Source: Hyphomicrobiales bacterium (GTDB taxonomy: Bacteria > Pseudomonadota > Alphaproteobacteria > Parvibaculales > Parvibaculaceae). Taken from it: a DNA stretch of 64,000 nt. The first letter of the stretch is position 1; the number at the start of each line of letters is the position of its first letter. The notes under the pieces were generated by a model, which did not search any database, had not been told where the DNA came from, and saw only the letters and a list, made by a program, of their open reading frames with translations. Location: the NCBI GenBank assembly GCA_016124805.1, contig WGND01000009.1, forward strand, positions 1 to 64,000, in the 5' to 3' direction. The translations under genes and the position numbers were made by a program. Shown piece after piece: positions 38,665-51,712 of the stretch.

Positions 38665-40296
38665 TTACGCTTTTGACAGGTCTTCTCCCGCCAGCGCGCG
38701 CCGGATCAGCTTTTCGGTCTGCCGCACCCCATAAAGTGCTGCAAAGGAGCCGAAGCGCGGCCCCTGCTCTTCACCCAGCAATACTTCATAAAGCGCCTTG
38801 AACCAGTCGCGCAGCGGCTCGAAACCATGGCCCTTTCCGATCTCGTACACAATATTCTGGAGATCTTCCGCCGTCGAATGCTCCGGTGCTGCAGCGAAGC
38901 GATCTGCCAGATCGGCCAGCGCCGCCTGCTCCTTCACGGAAGGTTCGCGATAGGTCTTTCCCGGCTTGACGAAATCATTGAAGTAATTGATCGCGTAGCC
39001 GACCATCTGATCGAGGCGGGGCTGATTTTCCGGCGTGGCTTCCGGCGCGTAGCTGTTGATGAAGCCCCAGAGCACATCCTTGTCTTCCGAATGGCTGGCG
39101 CTGGCGAGATTGAGCAGCAGCGAGAAACTGATCGGCAGATCAACCTCCGGCGGATTGCCCGCATGAATATGCCAGACCGGATTGCCCAGACGTTCCTTGG
39201 CGGCCTGGCGCGGATAGGCCGCCAGAAAGGAAAGATATTCATCCACATTCTTGGGGATGACATCGAAATAAAGACGCTTGCCGGTGCGCGGTGACTGATA
39301 CATGAAAAGCTGCAGGCTCTCGGGACTTGCATAACGCAGCCAGTCGTCAATCGTCAGGCCGTTGCCTTTCGACTTTGAAATCTTCTTGCCTTCCTCATCA
39401 AGGAACAGCTCGTAGTTGAAGCCTTCAGGCGGCTTGCCGCCCAGCACACGACAGATACGACCCGACAGCTTCATGCCGTCGATGTGATCCTTGCCCGCCA
39501 TTTCATAATCAATGCCGAGGGCGGCCCAGCGCATGCCCCAATCAGCTTTCCATTGCAGCTTGGCATGGCCGCCGAGCACGTTCTGCTCAACCGTTTCATG
39601 GGTTTCGGGATCCTCATATGTGACCGTGCCCTTGTCCGGATCGCGATCCAGAATCGGGACCAGCAGCACCTGCCCGGTGCGCGGGCTGATGGGGAGCACC
39701 GGGCTATAGGTCTGGGCGCGCTCCTCGCGCAGCGATGGCAGCATGATGTCCATGATGGCATCAAAATTCCTGAGCACGCCGCGCATGGCGTCATCGAACT
39801 TGCCACCACGATAACAATCGGTCGCGCTCACAAATTCATAGTCGAAGCCATAATGATCAAGGAACGAGCGCAGCATGGCATTGTTGTGATGGCCGAAGCT
39901 CTCAAACTTGCCAAAGGGGTCCGGCACCACGGTCAGCGGCTTGAACATGTGCTCGGCCAGCATGTCCCGATTAGGCACATTGTCCGGCACCTTGCGCATG
40001 CCGTCCATGTCATCGGAAAAACAGATGAGACGGGTGGGCACACCCGGCATGAGCGTCTCGAAGGCATGGCGGACCATGCTCGTGCGGGCGACTTCGCCGA
40101 AGGTGCCGATATGCGGCAGGCCGCTGGGCCCATAGCCGGTCTCAAACAGGATCGTCCGGTCCGGGCCGCCCTCTTTTTCCAGTCTCTGCACCAGTTTGCG
40201 CGCTTCCTCGAAGGGCCAGGCCTTGCTGACCCTGGCAGCTTCGAGAAGTTCGTCCGGCGAGATGGAAATCGGTGTCGAGGTGGTGTCGGCGGTCAT
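38665..40296 (-). CDS. lysS: Lysine--tRNA ligase, class I
   Basis: 543 residues. A class I LysRS of the archaeal type: PHIG of the HIGH motif (residues 61-64) and KISKS at 305-309, plus the [19 protein letters not shown] section. It charges tRNA-Lys. Most bacteria use the unrelated class II enzyme; class I LysRS is normal in many alphaproteobacteria and spirochaetes. Divergent from the sensor-kinase-like gene. Confidence 0.96.
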
Positions 40297-40399
40297 TTTT
40301 GAACCCGTTTGACGCTTAAGGTTTTATCAAGCGCCGGACCCTAAGCTGGCCTCTGCATGCAGTCAACGCGGCACAGGCCGACGACAGGGCTGCAACCTG

Positions 40400-42202
40400 T
40401 TGTGGAGTGTGTTGTTGGACCGAGTTGGCAAAGATAGCGAGGCAAGTGAGGCTTCTGCCCCCCGGGAGCTTCGCCTTCAGCGCCGCCCTGAACTGGAAAA
40501 GCGGATTCTGGCCGAACGGGTTCGTTTGCTCTATGGCCTGGGCGCCACCAACCGGTGGTCCATGTTCTTCATTATCGCCGTTATCGGCCTGATTTTCTGG
40601 CCTTTTGCCCCGCTCTGGACCCTGATCCCGGTGCTGGCCGTGCAGGCCCTTGCCCAGTTCAGCTTTGATATCTTGCGCGCCCGATTTCATGCCGATCCGA
40701 ACCTGACCGAGCGGGCCGAGCTCTGGGGCCGACGCTATGCCGCCGTCACCCTCATCAGCGGCACGACCTGGTCGCTCGGGGCCTATCTCTGGCTGCCATC
40801 GGCCACATATGACTATCAGATCATCTATCTGCTGGTGCTGGCCTGTCTGGCCATGGCCACAGCCGTCACCCGCGCCACCTATCCGCTCGCCGTCGTGACC
40901 TATGTGAGCACCTGCTGCGCGCCCACGGTTTTCTGGCTGATCGCGACCACCCCGACACTGGGCATCCCGCTCGCCGTCATGGGCAGCATTTTTCTGCTGG
41001 TGGCCTATGGCTGGACGCGCAAGATCAATGAATCCTATGTCGAGGCGATGCAATTGCGGTTTGAAAATGCCGATCTCGTCGAAAGCATGATGCGGGCGCA
41101 TGTCGCCAATGAACAGAAGCGGCGTGATGCCGAAGACGCCGAATGGCGCGCAAGGGCGACGGCCCAATCCAAGGATGAATTCCTTTCGCTGATGACCGAT
41201 GAAATCGCAACGCCGCTTGATGCGCTGGATGAAATGACGCAGCGACTGGAGAATAATGTCTCGGAGCAGGGACAGGTCATTCTGCGTGACATGCGCGACA
41301 CGCATCACTTCATTCGCCGCCTGATTGCCGATGTGGTTGATTTCTCGGATATGGAAGCGCAGTCCCTTGATCTGAAGATTGCGCCATTTGATCCGGCCAA
41401 TCTTGTGCGGGGTGTTGTGCGCATCATGCGCCATCAGGCAGATGCCAAGGGGCTCTCGCTCGAACTGGATCTGTCTGCGGACACGCCTGAATTGATGATC
41501 GGCGATGCCGATCGCGTCCGCCAGATCATGGTGGCCCTGATCGCAAATGCCATTCAGTTGACCGAACAGGGGGGCATCGTGCTTCAGATCGCCCCGGTCT
41601 TTGCACCTGATGCGGCAGCCCAACTCCGCTTCTCGGTGAGCGACACTGGCGCCGGTCTCAGCCCGGATGAGATTGACGGCATTTTTTATGATGATGGCAA
41701 TGGCAAGGGCAGTCTGAGCCTCACCATCTGCGACCGTCTGGTGCAGTTGATGGGCGGCCGCATCGGCGTGGACAGCACGCCGGGTATGGGCAGTCGCTTC
41801 TGGTTCCTTCTGCCCGTGCAACCAGATCAGCTTGCGCGGCCCGATCAGACGCGCGCCCTGATTGATCACGCCTTCCTGTTTGAAATGGAACGCGAGATGG
41901 GCTCAGACAGCATCACCAATCATCTGGTGAGCGGGCTTGAGCTGGTGCTTGCCCTGCACCGCAAGGTTGAAAAGGCCCGTATCCAGCGCGATGAACTTGC
42001 GCTGGGCCTCTATATTACCGAGCTCGAAAAAGCCGCTTCCGCCATCGGCATGACCGGCATTGCGCAGGTCGCCCATGAGATTGACCGCGCGATACTGGCG
42101 GGCGAGGCCGATGCCGCGCTCAAGGATGTGCCCCGAATCCAGCAGAAAATAACGGCCAGCTGGCGCGAGCTGGCCAAGGCCTATCCAAGCCTCGGCGGAT
42201 AG
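40400..42202 (+). CDS. Sensor-kinase-like protein lacking phospho-histidines
   Basis: 600 residues from a TTG at 40400 (a TTG at 40415, eight bases after GGAG, is the other choice). About six membrane helices (residues 55-205), a coiled coil (210-258), then a HisKA-like dimerisation domain whose H-box reads [13 protein letters not shown]: Asp267 is where the phospho-His belongs. The ATPase domain keeps Asn383 (N-box) and D415-x-G-x-G, but the G2 loop is GKGSLSL. A C-terminal domain (490-600) looks like Hpt, with Thr540 in place of its His ([12 protein letters not shown]). Likely a signalling pseudokinase, as DivL is in Caulobacter. No response regulator is adjacent. Confidence 0.82.
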
Positions 42203-42261: not shown

Positions 42262-45168
42262 ATGTCAGACCCTCTTCCCACCGATTCGGCCCGCCCATCC
42301 GGGACCGGCCTTGTCCTGCCTGATGCCCCGGCCCTGCTTGCGCTGCGCGGGCGCCAGTCCAATGCGGCTGCGCTGGCGGTCACGTCCGATGGGGAAATTG
42401 ACGAACTGGGTCAGGATGCCGCCTTGCGGATGCTGGAGCATGACGCGGTGATGGTGGTGCATGCGGGCTTTACCGCCCGGCGCATTGCCGGGGCACAGGG
42501 CAATCTGCGCATTTCGCGGGAGCCGGGACCACGTGTCTTTGACCTGCTGGAACTCTTTGCCTTTGTCTATCCGGCGCAAGCCTGCCTGCCAACGCCGGAA
42601 GGACTTTGCAAGGCCCTCTCCATGCCGCCTGCCGCCTCGCCAGAGGATCTCGCACTGCAGTTCCACGAAGCCGCCGCCTACATGCTGAGCGCGCTAAGTG
42701 CGCGCAACTATCCCCATCGCCATCTGGCCGCCCGCACCGCCTTGCGCATGGCGCAGGGTGGCTGGTCATGGGGGCCGGGTGTGGTGGCAGCCCTTGCCGA
42801 TGTGATGCGCAGCGACGAACAGCTCGCCAAGGGGTCGGGCTTCGACATCTGGAACAATCTGCCCGAATGGGAAGAAAAAGCGCCGCGTGGTCCAGCCTCA
42901 TCGCTGCCGGTGAGTGGCGAGGACGCCGAGACACGGCTGATCGAACTTGCAGGCGAGAGCGCGGAGTCACGCCCGGGACAGCGCGAATTTACCCGTGTTG
43001 CAGCGGGCGCCTTTGCCCCGCGCGAGCGCGCCGGCGCAACCCATATCGTGCTCGCTGAAGCAGGCACCGGCATCGGCAAGACCATCGGCTATATCGCGCC
43101 TGCCAGTCTCTGGGCGGAGCGCAACAAGGGCACGGTCTGGCTTTCAACCTATACCAAGAACCTGCAACGGCAACTTGATCAGGAGCTGACGCGGCTCTAT
43201 CCCGATCCTGCCGAAAAAATAGAGAAGGCGGTTATCCGCAAGGGGCGGGAAAACTATCTCTGCCTGCTCAATTTCGCCGAGAGCGCTGACCGCGCGGCCA
43301 TTGGCGGTGGTGCCGTTTCCACCGGCCTTGTGGCGCGATGGGCACTGGCGAGCCGCGATGGCGACATGGTGGGGGGCGACTTCCCGGCCTGGCTTGCCCA
43401 GCGTCCTGCCGCCCAGAGCCTGACCGACCGGCGCGGCGAATGCGTCTATGCCGCCTGCCCCTATTACAAAAAATGCTTTATCGAAAAAGCCATTCGCAAG
43501 GCACAGCGTGCCGACATTGTGGTCGCCAATCATGCGCTGGTGATGCGCCAGGCCGCCGTTGACATGGCGGTGATGTCGCTCAACCCTGCCGCGCTTCGAC
43601 CAGCCGCCCCTGACATTTCTGCGGGTGCCGAAGATGAAGAACCCAGCGGGCGCGAAGCCCGCATGCGCTTTGTCTTTGACGAGGGCCATCATATTTTCGA
43701 TGCGGCGGACAGCGCCTTTTCGGCCCATCTTTCCATTATTGAAACAGCCGAATTGCGGCGCTGGATACGCGGCGCGGAAGGCCAGCGCGGGCGACGCGGG
43801 CGCGGCCTTGATGACCGCATCGGTGATCTCGTATCCGGTGATGCTGTTGCCGAGGAAGCGCTTGATGCGGCGCTGAGCGCGGCGGCGGCGCTGCCCGGTC
43901 CCGGCTGGCAGGCGCGGATGAATGACGGCACGCCAAGGGGGGCTGCTGAACAGTTTCTCGCGCTGCTGCGACAGCAGGTTCACGCCCGGTCGCGCGATGA
44001 GGATGCAGCCTATTCGCTCGAGACTGACATATTGCCCACGGTCGAGGGGCTGGATGAGGCCGCCAAGGCGCTGGAGACAGCGATCGGCAAACTGATTGCG
44101 CCGATGAAACTGCTCGCCGAGCGCATGCGCATTCGCCTCGATGAAGGGGCTGAAGAACTCGACAGCAGCATGCGTATCCGGCTTGATGCCGCCGCGCGCG
44201 GACTTGACCGGCGCGCCATGCTGTTGCTGCCGGCGTGGCGCTCCATGCTGGCCGGTATCGGGCAGGCGAGCGACAAGGATTTCTATGAATGGTTTGCCGT
44301 TGAGCGTCTGGCCGGTCGCGAAATCGATGCCGGTATGTATCGCCACTGGCGCGATCCGACGATCCCCTTTGCTGCCTCCGTGCTGGAAACAGCCCATGGG
44401 GTGCTGATTGCCTCCGCCACGCTGCGCGACGGCCTGCATCAGGACGCAGATGACGGGGAAAAATGGGAAAATGAAAGCTGGCAGAGTGCTGAAATCCGCA
44501 CCGGCGCCTCGCATCTGCCGCTGCCTGCGATTCGCGCCTTCATGGCGTCGCCCTTTGACTATCAAAAACAGGCACGCATTTTTGTGGTCAATGACATCAA
44601 CCGCAATGACATGGATGCGATTGCTGCGGCCTATCGTGCGCTCTTCATGGCGGCGGGTGGTGGCGCACTCGGCCTCTTCACGGCAATCCGCCGGCTCCGC
44701 GCCGTGCATGAGCGCATTTCAGGCGCGCTCGAAGCCGAGGGCCTGCCGCTCTATGCCCAGCATATGGATGGGCTCGACACCGGCACATTGGTTGATATCT
44801 TCCGGGCGGATCGGCATGCCTGCCTGCTGGGTACCGATGCCGTGCGCGACGGGGTGGATGTGCCCGGCGACTCGCTGCGCATGATCGTGTTTGACCGCAC
44901 CCCCTGGCCACGACCTGACCTGCTGCACAAGGCGCGGCGTGAAATTTTCGGCGGCGGGCGCTATGACGACATGCTGACCCGGCTAAGGCTGAAACAGGCC
45001 TTTGGCCGCCTGATCCGAACGGAAGCTGACCGGGGCGTCTTCGTCACACTCGACTCCCGCCTGCCGACCCGCCTGACCTCGGCCTTTCCACCGGGCCTGA
45101 CTGTGGAACGCGTGGGTCTGGCCGAGGCCATCGCCGCCTCGCGGGACTTTCTAGCCCAGCGGGACTGA
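42262..45168 (+). CDS. DinG-family ATP-dependent DNA helicase
   Basis: 968 residues, XPD/DinG superfamily 2 helicase. Walker A GTGIGKT at 268-274, Walker B DEGH at 473-476, and four cysteines (334, 394, 399, 405) spaced for the iron-sulphur cluster of this family. Motif VI is in the GRLIRTEADRG section near the end. Residues about 20-130 look like the remnant of a DnaQ-type exonuclease domain (VMVVHAGFTARR, RVFDLLELFAFVYP) without its acidic catalytic residues. Such N-terminal domains occur in DinG of other groups. It probably unwinds 5'-overhang DNA, R-loops or other repair substrates. Confidence 0.92.
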   Translation: MSDPLPTDSARPSGTGLVLPDAPALLALRGRQSNAAALAVTSDGEIDELGQDAALRMLEHDAVMVVHAGFTARRIAGAQGNLRISREPGPRVFDLLELFAFVYPAQACLPTPEGLCKALSMPPAASPEDLALQFHEAAAYMLSALSARNYPHRHLAARTALRMAQGGWSWGPGVVAALADVMRSDEQLAKGSGFDIWNNLPEWEEKAPRGPASSLPVSGEDAETRLIELAGESAESRPGQREFTRVAAGAFAPRERAGATHIVLAEAGTGIGKTIGYIAPASLWAERNKGTVWLSTYTKNLQRQLDQELTRLYPDPAEKIEKAVIRKGRENYLCLLNFAESADRAAIGGGAVSTGLVARWALASRDGDMVGGDFPAWLAQRPAAQSLTDRRGECVYAACPYYKKCFIEKAIRKAQRADIVVANHALVMRQAAVDMAVMSLNPAALRPAAPDISAGAEDEEPSGREARMRFVFDEGHHIFDAADSAFSAHLSIIETAELRRWIRGAEGQRGRRGRGLDDRIGDLVSGDAVAEEALDAALSAAAALPGPGWQARMNDGTPRGAAEQFLALLRQQVHARSRDEDAAYSLETDILPTVEGLDEAAKALETAIGKLIAPMKLLAERMRIRLDEGAEELDSSMRIRLDAAARGLDRRAMLLLPAWRSMLAGIGQASDKDFYEWFAVERLAGREIDAGMYRHWRDPTIPFAASVLETAHGVLIASATLRDGLHQDADDGEKWENESWQSAEIRTGASHLPLPAIRAFMASPFDYQKQARIFVVNDINRNDMDAIAAAYRALFMAAGGGALGLFTAIRRLRAVHERISGALEAEGLPLYAQHMDGLDTGTLVDIFRADRHACLLGTDAVRDGVDVPGDSLRMIVFDRTPWPRPDLLHKARREIFGGGRYDDMLTRLRLKQAFGRLIRTEADRGVFVTLDSRLPTRLTSAFPPGLTVERVGLAEAIAASRDFLAQRD

Positions 45169-45244
45169 GCCGCGCGCCTTGCCCATCGGCACCCAAATCC
45201 CTAAGCTGCGCCCGCTTCTTACTCTCTTTCTGTCAGGACCTCCC

Positions 45245-45655
45245 ATGTCAACGATCGCGCCGGAAAATGCCCTCATTTACATCATGGTCACGATGAGCGC
45301 CGTTGATAGCGCCATGGACGACAATGAATTGATGGAAATCGGCAGCATCGTGAAAGTCCTGCCAGTCTTCAGGGATTTCAATCCCGAGCGCATCATTCCG
45401 GTGGCAAAAGAATGCGCGGCGATCCTGCATGAGGATGGCGGACTGGATGCTGTTCTGGGTCTGGTCAAGGACGCGCTGCCGCTGCATCTGCGCGAAACGG
45501 GCTATGTGCTTGCCGTCGAAATTGCGGCTGCCGATCTCAATGTGTCAGCCGAGGAACTGCGCCTGTTGCAGCTGCTGCGCGATACGCTGGAAATCGACAA
45601 GTTGACGGCTGCCGCCCTTGAGCGCGGCGCGCGCGCGCGCCACATGACGATCTGA
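45245..45655 (+). CDS. TerB-family protein
   Basis: 136 residues from the ATG at 45245 with AGGA upstream. An all-helical TerB-like fold: ALIYIMVTMSAVDSAMDDNELMEI and GYVLAVEIAAADLNVSAEELRLL carry the two Asp/Glu metal-binding helix starts of the tellurite-resistance TerB/DjlA family. Its role outside tellurite operons is unclear; no other ter genes are near. Confidence 0.8.
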   Translation: MSTIAPENALIYIMVTMSAVDSAMDDNELMEIGSIVKVLPVFRDFNPERIIPVAKECAAILHEDGGLDAVLGLVKDALPLHLRETGYVLAVEIAAADLNVSAEELRLLQLLRDTLEIDKLTAAALERGARARHMTI

Positions 45656-46554: not shown

Positions 46555-47382
46555 ATGGACCAGTTCTTGATATCGCAGGAAGCCGGCATCAGGCTGATGG
46601 CCTTTGCAGCCGTGCTGGCCGTGATGATGGTGTGGGAGTTTCTGGCACCCCGTCGCGCTCAGGCTTTGCCGCGTCAGAAAAGATGGCCCACCAATCTGGG
46701 CCTGAGCCTGTTCAACACGGCACTGTTGCGAATTGCCGTGCCCGTGGCGGCGACAGGCGCGGCGCTCTGGGCGGCACAGGCTGGCGTGGGCCTCCTCAAC
46801 CAGACCGAGATGCCACTGGTGTTTGCCTATATCATCACCCTGCTTGCCCTCGACTTTCTCATTTATGCCCAGCATGTCCTGTTTCATCGGGTGCCGCTGC
46901 TCTGGCGCGTTCACAAGATGCATCATGCCGACACCGATCTTGATGTCACCAGCGGCATCCGCTTTCATCCCATCGAGATCCTGCTCAGCGTTGCGATCAA
47001 GATGGCGGCGATCATCGCGCTTGGCGCGCCTGCCGGTGCCGTGATCCTGTTTGAAATCCTGCTCAACGCCATGGCGATGTTCAATCATGCCAATATCAAT
47101 CTTGCGCCGGGCCTTGATCGTGTTTTGAGAAAAATCATCGTCACGCCGGACATGCACCGCGTTCATCACTCTGTGATACCGGCAGAGCATCATCGCAATT
47201 TCGGCTTTAACCTGTCGCTTTGGGATCGCCTGTTTCACACTTACATCGCCCAGCCGCGTGAAGGCCATCTCGGCATGAAAATCGGACTGACTGATTATCC
47301 GGGGCCACAGCCTGCTGAGTTCCTGTGGAACCTTGTGCTACCCTTCACCCGTGACATGCGCGAGGAGGAGAAAAAGGCATGA
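46555..47382 (+). CDS. Sterol desaturase/fatty acid hydroxylase family protein
   Basis: 275 residues, about four membrane helices, with the His clusters of the di-iron family: HVLFHRVPLLWRVHKMHH (about 108-124), FNHANI, and HRVHHS (about 203-208). It hydroxylates or desaturates a lipid in the inner membrane; substrate unknown. It overlaps the phosphatase gene by ATGA. Confidence 0.88.
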   Translation: MDQFLISQEAGIRLMAFAAVLAVMMVWEFLAPRRAQALPRQKRWPTNLGLSLFNTALLRIAVPVAATGAALWAAQAGVGLLNQTEMPLVFAYIITLLALDFLIYAQHVLFHRVPLLWRVHKMHHADTDLDVTSGIRFHPIEILLSVAIKMAAIIALGAPAGAVILFEILLNAMAMFNHANINLAPGLDRVLRKIIVTPDMHRVHHSVIPAEHHRNFGFNLSLWDRLFHTYIAQPREGHLGMKIGLTDYPGPQPAEFLWNLVLPFTRDMREEEKKA

Positions 47383-47906
47383 AGCGGCTTTGCCTTTTTC
47401 GGCATGCAAAATCTGACTGGCGCGACGCAGGCTTGAATGATTTCGAGCGGCCCCTGAATGAGCGCGGTCGCAAGGCGGCCGATTTCATGGCCCATTTCAT
47501 TGATCAATCGCAATGGCGTCCCGACGCCGTTCTCTGCTCCACAGCCGTGCGCGCGCGCGAAACTTTTGCGCCGCTGCAGGCACTTCTCGGCACCGGCATG
47601 CCCGTCCAGTTTATTGACAGGCTCTATCACGCCATGCCGGATGTGCTGCTGGAGGTGATCCACGCCGAAGCATCCGATGATGCCGACACATTGCTTGTCA
47701 TCGCCCATAATCCGGGACTGGCGCTCATGGCTGCCGACCTTGCCCCGGCTGAGACAGACGAGGCGATGGCGCATGGTGACGGCATGCCGACGGGCGGCTT
47801 CATCGTTTTTGAATTTGATGTCGACCATTGGCGCGATGTGAAGGAACATCAAGGACGCCTCGTCTTCTTCGGCAAGCCGCGCCAGCTAATGGCCGAGGCC
47901 AAATAG
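47379..47906 (+). CDS. SixA-like histidine phosphatase family protein
   Basis: 175 residues of the branch-2-like short histidine phosphatases: LFRHAKSDW holds the catalytic RHxK/G motif at residues 8-11, and IAHNPGL carries the second His. SixA of E. coli removes phosphate from Hpt domains; relatives have other substrates. The start overlaps the desaturase stop. There is a (degenerate) Hpt-type protein 5 kb upstream, but no link is proven. Confidence 0.85.
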   Translation: MKRLCLFRHAKSDWRDAGLNDFERPLNERGRKAADFMAHFIDQSQWRPDAVLCSTAVRARETFAPLQALLGTGMPVQFIDRLYHAMPDVLLEVIHAEASDDADTLLVIAHNPGLALMAADLAPAETDEAMAHGDGMPTGGFIVFEFDVDHWRDVKEHQGRLVFFGKPRQLMAEAK

Positions 47907-49190: not shown

Positions 49191-51143
49191 ATGTCCGGTC
49201 GAGGGGACGGCGACAGGCATGTGCGGCAGCAGCCCGCCAAGCGACGCCCCTTGTCCGGCGACACAAGGCAGCGCCGACGCAAGCACCTTCTGATGGGCGA
49301 ACTTGCCCTTGCGCGCGGACTGATCGCTCCTCACGAGCTCCTGCCTTTGCTGGGTCTGCAAAAAAAATGGGGCACCAGACTGGGCCCCACCCTTCTTTCT
49401 TCAGGTCACGCAACGCCGCATGACATTGCGCGGCTTGTCGCCACGCAGCGCGACCTGCCCCTGATAAATCTGCGCCACGAGCCGCCCGATGCAGCCCTGC
49501 TGCGCGCAAATGACATCGCCTTCTATCTGGCGCATCACTGTCTGCCCTGGCGGCGCGTCAACGGCGAAGTGGTCTATGTGGCGGCTGATCCTGTCGAAGC
49601 CGCAAAGATCATTGCCCAGCGCAATGGACGCCTTGCACGCATCCATGTGGCGTCGGCGCGCGACATCCAGAAAACTGTCGCCGCGCATTTTGGTGAGGAA
49701 CTCAGCGAGCTGGCGATCCATGGCCTCGAGCGCACGCATGCGACATTTTCGGCCTCGCGACGTACCACGCCTTCGCAGGACATATGGATCGGGTGCCTCG
49801 CACTGCTCACCCTCGCTGCCCTGTTATTCGCACCGGACTCAAGCCTGGTAGCTTTGAACGTCATTCTGGGGTCCTGCTTTCTCGGCATCGGGGCGTTGCG
49901 GCTGCTATCCATCCTGATCGGCCTGACCGCTGCACCCAGTGCGGAACAGCGCGCCTTTGCCCAATCCCGACCGGTCGCTGATTGCGACTTGCCGATCTAT
50001 ACGATCATCGTGCCGCTGTTCAGGGAATCTGCGGTGCTGCCAGTCATTGCACATGCCCTGCAACGGCTTGACTATCCCGCCGCCAAGCTCGACATCAAAC
50101 TTGTCTTTGAGGAAAGTGATCCGCAAACCTATGCGGATGCCAAGGCGCTGAACCTGCCCGGTCACATCGAATTCATCCGTGTACCCGACAGTCTTCCCCG
50201 CACCAAGCCCAAGGCCTGCAATTACGCGCTCCCCTTTGTACGCGGCCGCTATGCCGTCGTTTATGATGCCGAGGATATGCCCGAGCCGGATCAATTGCGC
50301 AAAGCCATCGCCGCGTTCGATCTCGGCGACCCGAGGCTTGCCTGCGTGCAGGCCCAGCTCAATTATTACAACTGGAACGAGAACTGGCTGACCCGACAAT
50401 TCGCACTTGAATATGCCGCCTTTTTCGATCTGCTTCTGCCGGCGCTGGACCAGTTGCGCCTGCCGATACCGCTCGGCGGCACGTCGACCCATTTCCGTGT
50501 TGATGCGCTGCGGGCCTGCGGCGGCTGGGATGCCTATAATGTGACGGAGGATGCCGATCTCGGGATACGCCTGAGAGTGCTTGGCTATCGCTGCGGCATC
50601 ATCAATTCAACGACGCAGGAAGAAGCCAATTGCCGACCCGGCAACTGGATCCGGCAACGCTCACGCTGGGTGAAAGGCTGGGTACAGACCTATCTGGTGC
50701 ATATGCGTCATCCGGTGAGCCTGTTTCGTGCGCTTGGCTGGCGGGGCTTCCTCGGCTTTCAGCTGGTGATCGGCGGCTTCAGCCTTTCCAATCTCGTCCA
50801 TCCTTTTTTTTATGCCGTGCTTGTTAACCATGTTTTTCTGAACCATGGCAGCGAAACGGATATGCCGCTGGTCATCTTCAATCTGGTGGTGCTGGTCTCC
50901 GGCTACAGCCTGACCATCATCGCGGGCATGGTGGCGGTGTCGCGGCGCGGGCTGGTACGCCTCATTCCCTCCGCCCTCAGCCTGCCCGCCTATTGGCTGC
51001 TGATATCGCTGGCCTCCTACAAGGCGCTGTATCAATTCGTAACGCGGCCCTTTCACTGGGAAAAGACCGATCACGGCCTCAGCCGCATGAAACTGCCCGA
51101 CATCCAGATTGCAAAAGAGCCCCGCTCGATAACCAATCACTAA
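49191..51143 (+). CDS. GT2 glycosyltransferase with N-terminal MshEN-like domain
   Basis: 650 residues; GGAGG is six bases before the ATG. Residues 33-175 follow the GspE/MshE N-terminal pattern: LLMGELALARGLI, then TRLGPTLLSSG, the RLGxxLxxxG segment used by MshEN domains to bind c-di-GMP. After membrane helices (198-245) comes a processive family-2 transferase domain (265-495) with DAED (359-362), TED (452-454) and QRSRW (489-493), as in cellulose-synthase-like enzymes. More helices follow (about 510-620). It should polymerise a beta-glycan at the inner membrane, with c-di-GMP control by inference. A response regulator follows 59 bp downstream. Confidence 0.88.
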   Translation: MSGRGDGDRHVRQQPAKRRPLSGDTRQRRRKHLLMGELALARGLIAPHELLPLLGLQKKWGTRLGPTLLSSGHATPHDIARLVATQRDLPLINLRHEPPDAALLRANDIAFYLAHHCLPWRRVNGEVVYVAADPVEAAKIIAQRNGRLARIHVASARDIQKTVAAHFGEELSELAIHGLERTHATFSASRRTTPSQDIWIGCLALLTLAALLFAPDSSLVALNVILGSCFLGIGALRLLSILIGLTAAPSAEQRAFAQSRPVADCDLPIYTIIVPLFRESAVLPVIAHALQRLDYPAAKLDIKLVFEESDPQTYADAKALNLPGHIEFIRVPDSLPRTKPKACNYALPFVRGRYAVVYDAEDMPEPDQLRKAIAAFDLGDPRLACVQAQLNYYNWNENWLTRQFALEYAAFFDLLLPALDQLRLPIPLGGTSTHFRVDALRACGGWDAYNVTEDADLGIRLRVLGYRCGIINSTTQEEANCRPGNWIRQRSRWVKGWVQTYLVHMRHPVSLFRALGWRGFLGFQLVIGGFSLSNLVHPFFYAVLVNHVFLNHGSETDMPLVIFNLVVLVSGYSLTIIAGMVAVSRRGLVRLIPSALSLPAYWLLISLASYKALYQFVTRPFHWEKTDHGLSRMKLPDIQIAKEPRSITNH

Positions 51144-51202: not shown

Positions 51203-51712
51203 TTGTCTCATATTTCCTTCACAACCACGCTGCCGCTCGAAACCTACAGGCAATTGGGTGTCCTGGTTGTCGAGGATTCACCCCATATGGCATCGATGCT
51301 GCGCATCATCCTGAATGAGCTTGGGGTGACACGCATCTGGTCGGCACGCAGTGGCGAGGATGCCCTGGGCGTCTTCTCGCGTCACAGCGTCGATATTTCG
51401 GTGATTGATGAACTCGAGCCGCCTCTTGATGGCCTTTCCATCGTGCGCGCCATCCGCATGGCGGAAACTGATGATCTGCAGCGCGTGCCTGCGATCTATC
51501 TGACGACGCAGCGCTCGCGCGAGGAGATTATCGCTGCGCGCGATGCCGGCGTGACCGAAATTCTCTCCAAACCTTTTTCAGCTGCCCAATTTGTCGCGCG
51601 ACTGGAAACCGTGCTGAAGCGCCCGCGCCCGATCATCAAAAGTGAAAATTTCATCGGCCCGGACCGTCGTCGCCGCGAACAAGGCGCGACGGACGAACGC
51701 CGCAAGGGCTGA
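51203..51712 (+). CDS. Response regulator (receiver domain, GPDRRRR tail)
   Basis: 169 residues from a TTG at 51203, chosen because AAGGA lies seven bases upstream and no ATG occurs before the conserved core. Single receiver domain: acidic pair Glu24/Asp25 (VVEDSP), phospho-acceptor Asp69 (SVIDELEP), and Lys123 (LSKPFS). The C-terminal tail FIGPDRRRR is a motif shared by a group of alphaproteobacterial receivers. No output domain, so it acts by binding a partner. Likely co-transcribed with the glycosyltransferase. Confidence 0.88.
   Translation: MSHISFTTTLPLETYRQLGVLVVEDSPHMASMLRIILNELGVTRIWSARSGEDALGVFSRHSVDISVIDELEPPLDGLSIVRAIRMAETDDLQRVPAIYLTTQRSREEIIAARDAGVTEILSKPFSAAQFVARLETVLKRPRPIIKSENFIGPDRRRREQGATDERRKG

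Follow-up and report, generated by a model that had tools for sequence, protein, structure and literature searches.

What can a sensor histidine kinase still do when neither of its phospho-accepting histidines is left? This question is raised by a gene in the window, the 64,000-nucleotide stretch of Hyphomicrobiales DNA that we analysed. A sequence-only reading had placed Asp267 in the H box and Thr540 in a terminal Hpt-like domain, had found the ATP-binding residues kept, and had proposed a signalling pseudokinase that acts by conformation. The gene, its parts and the neighbours that define its locus are as follows.

38665-40296, - strand: lysK, class I lysyl-tRNA synthetase, the divergent neighbour that anchors orthology (Pfam; synteny).
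40400-42202, + strand: hybrid-derived sensor histidine kinase, predicted to be catalytically dead; ORF of 600 aa with TTG start and TAG stop (Pfam; same-slot orthologues).
40538-41017, + strand: membrane sensor region, residues ~47-206, a predicted helical bundle (AlphaFold2 model; invariant columns).
41015-41167, + strand: coiled-coil linker, residues 206-256 (AlphaFold2 model; conservation).
41168-41365, + strand: DHp (HisKA) domain, residues 257-322 (Pfam; rates).
41198-41200, + strand: codon GAT, Asp267 at the phospho-accepting His position (codon read; orthologue alignment).
41366-41827, + strand: CA (HATPase_c) domain, residues 323-476, fold retained (Pfam; model and PDB comparison).
41534-41563, + strand: N box, with N383 kept and N379 and K386 lost (N379A, K386Q) (comparison with congeners).
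41681-41728, + strand: F box, ATP lid and G2 box, with F432D, G436K, G438S and G440S and a lid 9-15 residues shorter than that of congeners (alignment).
41855-42199, + strand: Hpt-fold domain without phospho-His, ending in a C-terminal AYPSL tail (AlphaFold2 pLDDT 95; Hpt PDB matches; alignment).
42017-42019, + strand: codon ACC, Thr540 at the Hpt His position (codon read; orthologue alignment).
42262-45168, + strand: DinG-like helicase, starting 59 bp past the kinase stop and probably co-transcribed (Pfam; synteny; gap).
45179-45655, + strand: TerB-like protein, the conserved next gene (Pfam; synteny).

Pfam searches of the kinase ORF gave HATPase_c over residues 368-474 (2.1e-18), HisKA over residues 258-320 (4.4e-5, just under the curated cut-off) and a weak Hpt match over residues 545-586. 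A receiver domain was absent by Pfam, and no PAS match was obtained at E up to 1; membrane helices take the place of PAS. The AlphaFold2 model of the whole protein (mean pLDDT 80.7) contained membrane helices, the CA domain and a C-terminal helical bundle, and a single unbroken helix (188-283) extended from the final membrane helix along the coiled coil and on into the DHp. Alignment columns S120, G121, W124, W131, R158, Y168 and P175 of the membrane sensor region are invariant in the family. Compared with the PDB, the kinase-core model matched DivL first (4q20, Z 23.0), RetS (6dk7, Z 22.7) and many ordinary kinases too; matches to a predicted model of this kind show fold only. Residues 486-600, folded alone, reached pLDDT 95.4 and matched HptB (Z 16.8, 2.0 Å over 113 residues) and the ArcB Hpt (Z 14.7). 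Hpt or phosphotransfer proteins made up the 23 top-ranked PDB entries, with Z from 16.8 down to 12.0 (the title of one, 4euk, says no more than 'Crystal structure'). As modelled, the C-terminus adopts a genuine Hpt fold: the helical bundle of an Hpt phosphotransfer domain is there, and its phospho-accepting His is not (Thr540). A 517-aa open frame lies antisense to the kinase (40316-41869, - strand) and is probably a by-product of high-GC codon use.

Of 26 congeneric genomes, 23 contained full-length or near-full-length relatives of the kinase; the other three, which gave no strong match, are 57-79% complete. Relatives were present in every checked genome of genera g3, g4 and g5, and the order lysK-kinase-helicase-TerB was shared by the fetched relatives wherever contig ends allowed. 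Orthologues within the genus were 44-52% identical to the window protein (nearest ~51%). The same slot is occupied in other families of the class (G039, G040, G163, G152, G147, G305 and G233), and because the neighbours are the same across families, orthology is not based on similarity alone. The window protein belongs to this lysK-locus group both by its slot, between the divergent lysK and the DinG-like helicase, and by full-length similarity. HisKA, HATPase, receiver and Hpt are all intact in the G039 relative; those of G147, G305 and G233 lack the receiver and keep both His residues. Comparison of these sequences suggests descent from what was probably a phosphorelay kinase in which the DHp His, the CA and the Hpt His were intact and which, in some lineages, had a receiver. 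The receiver was likely lost first and the Hpt His second, followed by repeated losses of the ATP site or the DHp His; we infer the order of the first two steps.

Several features of the locus vary. Two divergent versions of lysK occur among congeners, ~60-62% or 72-83% identical to that of the window (38665-40296; L042, L043, L045), and they differ even between genomes with near-identical kinases (G013 vs. G001 and G022), a pattern suggesting that horizontally acquired copies replaced lysK without a change of site. In G027 and G031 (genus g2), neither a class I lysyl-tRNA synthetase nor the kinase was found at the thresholds used. In G244 (C16:1652-5709, L081) the kinase is tandemly duplicated, the second copy being shorter (~506-aa open frame).

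The two phospho sites have different histories. The codons and the orthologue alignment confirmed both substitutions, placing residue 267 on the H-box His and residue 540 on the Hpt His; aligned relatives with an intact Hpt His read LSHSLAGASANLG (G039) and AHDLKSTAGNIG (G147). A shifted alignment that hides a true H box was rejected: orthologues align gap-free across the H box, and there is no alternative His. Position 267 is His in 22 of 23 congeners and Arg in G003; outside the genus it is Gln in genus g4, Arg in G030 and His in 7 of 7 g3 genomes. A tree built without the catalytic columns requires at least four losses of the H-box His (to D, R, Q and R). Because His267 is present in nearly all congeners, Asp267 is specific to the window lineage. 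Position 540 is R, G, E, L, A, Q, D or T in orthologues and His in only 4 of 33 others in the order; the Hpt His is thus not conserved in the order, and Thr540 was inherited with no special event. Loss of both phospho sites as one event, as first suggested, does not hold: Asp267 arose in one lineage, and the Hpt His is missing as a conserved feature across the order. Orthologues with His had been named as grounds for refutation. Those found at position 267 do refute an ancient pseudokinase family, but the pseudokinase reading of the window protein itself stands.

N383 and D415-G417-G419 are present, in agreement with the sequence-only reading. However, N379, K386, F432, G436, G438 and G440, which are invariant in 23 of 23 congeners, are lost in the window protein, and its lid region (419-441) has 23 residues vs. 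32-38 in congeners. Among congener-invariant CA sites, 6 of 15 in ATP-site motifs were changed vs. 2 of 35 elsewhere (Fisher p=0.006). The identity of the CA domain to congeners (52%) is like that of the control species (51-55%); thus, the CA fold has been kept although the pocket is broken. When congener-invariant sites of the core were compared with the rest, no difference emerged (12/65 vs. 10/52); only the motif-level and DHp tests gave one. Genera g3, g4 and g5 have lost the N-box Asn and the G2 box, and 13 of 34 orthologues, all at the conserved locus, lack one or more of H, N, G1-Asp and G2. These sequences point to independent loss of the ATP site in sister genera. Judged as a HisKA autokinase, the window protein has neither the H-box His (Asp267) nor intact N, G1, F and G2 boxes, and the pseudokinase reading is supported more strongly than had been argued, since the ATP-binding motifs are broken as well. 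Weak nucleotide binding is possible, as N383 and G1 remain. Two other congeners deserve mention: in G017 (L051:5962-7842) the H-box His is present but Ala stands in for the G1-box Asp (VTATGPG), which may be another independent inactivation, and G003 (L058:5977-7851), with Arg for the H-box His, has a seemingly intact ATP site, a possible early stage of inactivation.

The kinase frame is open over 600 codons with no internal stops. To compare rates, the neighbour tree was used as fixed topology, and lysK was left out because its two divergent versions distorted that tree. The branch of the window species accounted for 5.9% of kinase tree length vs. 6.0% of the tree of four neighbour genes. Branch share per domain (parsimony) was 9.7% for DHp, 5.8% for TM, 5.9% for linker, 6.2% for CA and 5.1% for Hpt; DHp was faster than the rest (uncorrected p=0.006), and a chi-square test across the five domains gave p=0.054. 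Identity of the DHp to congeners was 35.5% vs. 50-54% in control species. In the linker, the segment with the highest conservation (mean 66% identity to congeners), and in the Hpt (51.5%), identity was similar to or above that of controls. This domain pattern is the one expected when kinase chemistry is lost and sensor, linker and Hpt-fold domain are retained; the faster DHp also fits partial decay. The intact ORF and a rate no faster than that of neighbours argue against an obvious decaying pseudogene, and the open frame and ordinary rate show, indirectly, that the protein is being maintained.

By its residues the protein has no phosphotransfer step left: receiver, Hpt His and DHp His are missing, and the ATP pocket is crippled. 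From this we infer the absence of catalytic activity. We give somewhat better than even chances to the reading that the protein is a membrane-bound adaptor that acts by conformation, is catalytically dead and has kept its sensor, linker and Hpt-fold domain. A signal from the membrane region would run via the coiled coil to the DHp-like dimer, and the DHp, CA-like and Hpt-like surfaces would in turn bind a partner differently, the partner being either a receiver or a second kinase. The protein would then serve as adaptor or competitor by conformation, and no phosphate would flow through it. Support comes from the parallel losses at a conserved locus; moreover, the same genome holds no covering paralogue, the next best match being ~30-32% identical and nothing exceeding ~32%. 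The residues at H+8, H+11 and H+15 govern receiver choice in other kinases. In the window protein they are A, E and R, and all differ from those of congeners; therefore, binding to the ancestral receiver may be lost, which counts against the adaptor reading.

A role confined to phosphatase activity, in which the protein strips phosphate from a receiver through the acid-x-x-T motif of the DHp as RetS does on GacS, is unlikely. The window H box does read DExxT, with E268-x-x-T271 present and P272 adjoining, and RetS, with its degenerate HATPase, keeps HExxT and is a transmitter phosphatase (PMC5992135). However, most congeners have Ala in place of T271, and the motif is therefore not ancestral there; the residue before E268 is Asp rather than His, and the receiver-specificity positions are changed. 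We regard as rather unlikely that the protein is a dominant partner, forming mixed dimers with an intact histidine kinase and inhibiting or activating that kinase. ChrS turned pseudokinase acts via heterodimers with HrrS (PMC9491836), the broken CA site with a kept H-box His in the 7 g3 genomes fits phosphorylation in trans, and the model retains the DHp fold and the coiled coil. Against these points, the genome offers no close paralogue as partner (~30-32% at best), and the DHp is the lowest-conserved part of the protein.

Several catalytic sites are lost and the DHp is faster, as would be seen if the gene were in decay, its kinase function unneeded and its protein a remnant on the way to loss; the two g2 genomes without both lysK and kinase at the thresholds used point the same way. 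This outcome is nevertheless quite improbable. The ORF is intact, the whole-gene rate equals that of the neighbours, losses cluster in ATP motifs and are not spread over the CA domain, and dead forms persist in several genera, on long branches, in the same slot. Finally, Asp267 is carried by one genome and is a single base from a His codon (CAT to GAT), as in a sequencing or assembly error in an otherwise ordinary kinase. Such an error is extremely improbable: the ATP site has lost six further residues and a stretch of its lid, damage that restoring His at 267 would leave unrepaired, and sister lineages display the same kind of loss.

The adaptor reading can be extended to relatives. The whole lysK-locus kinase family in the order might signal mainly by conformation, through the linker and a His-less Hpt-fold domain with an AYPxL tail, with kinase activity dispensable and catalytic residues shed repeatedly; we hold this extension to be possible, with the chances clearly against it. 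If true, the family would document, in natural intermediate stages, the passage from a phosphorelay kinase to a protein that signals purely by conformation. Pseudo-histidine kinases are known singly, mostly as old, fixed cases. Here, one chromosomal slot shows intact, half-broken and fully dead orthologues together, with a separate loss of the ATP site besides the at least four phospho-His losses, so that one can ask which function selection maintains once catalysis is no longer under it, and whether the ATP site or the His is the first to go.

Known systems resemble the window protein in part. RcsD is membrane bound and has a kinase-like core without catalysis fused to an Hpt, which retains its His and transfers phosphate. 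Plant pseudo-HPt proteins such as AHP6 are stand-alone, have the Hpt fold without the phospho-His, and are thought to compete for receivers. RcsD-type phosphotransferases (NCBIfam NF007907) share the non-catalytic core and the Hpt with the window protein, which differs in having Thr at the Hpt His. AHP6 shares the Hpt fold without the phospho-His; as a stand-alone plant protein, it is likened by fold only.

DivL of Caulobacter and relatives has, like the window protein, a DHp-CA fold, a replaced phospho-His and weak or absent catalysis (PMC4211667). However, DivL has PAS domains and a Tyr that is conserved among DivL orthologues (PMC4211667), whereas orthologues of the window protein mostly have His, the substitutes being D, R, Q and R, and an Hpt-fold domain follows the CA. 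The comparison with DivL made earlier thus holds as analogy and no further, given that conserved Tyr and a separate DivL-type kinase in the genome. Orthology to DivL was rejected: the H box has Asp where a DivL would have Tyr (or Ala), 22 of 23 congeners have His, PAS is absent and a DivL-type protein is encoded elsewhere. The latter, L162 (G000:C4:88300-90900), has Tyr in the H box (SYQLRTPL, FIGHVSYQLRTPL). Among the 18 other readable kinases of the genome, the H box has His in 17 and Tyr in 1 (L162); loss of the phospho-His is therefore rare in this genome.

RetS of Pseudomonas is likewise a hybrid-type kinase with degenerate HATPase, and it acts on another kinase (PMC5992135). It keeps the H-box His (HExxT) and receiver domains; the window protein has DExxT and no receiver, and is thus not a RetS. 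The ChrS pseudokinase of Corynebacterium glutamicum is also a kinase in which catalysis is lost while function is gained or retained through pairing with a second kinase; it arose by a laboratory frameshift in the CA, whereas losses in the window family are natural, repeated and at several sites (PMC9491836). Pseudo-histidine kinases are thus a known kind (DivL, RetS, ChrS); what is new is the repeated, graded loss in one syntenic group and the His-less Hpt-fold domain.

The SixA-like phosphatase and the stand-alone receiver reported near the kinase are both real: a histidine-phosphatase-like protein is encoded at 47379-47906 and a receiver at 51203-51712. The SixA-like gene is syntenic in the genus, and the receiver, which retains the pattern of a working receiver, is ~9-13 kb away from the kinase in those congeners that were checked. 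Because the block is genus-conserved whether or not the kinase is intact, nearness is weak evidence of partnership, though either gene product may still be a partner. The receiver carries an Arg-rich tail (FIGPDRRRR) and directly follows an MshEN-domain glycosyltransferase (49191-51143), an arrangement conserved in the genus; the two are possibly a control unit for an exopolysaccharide.
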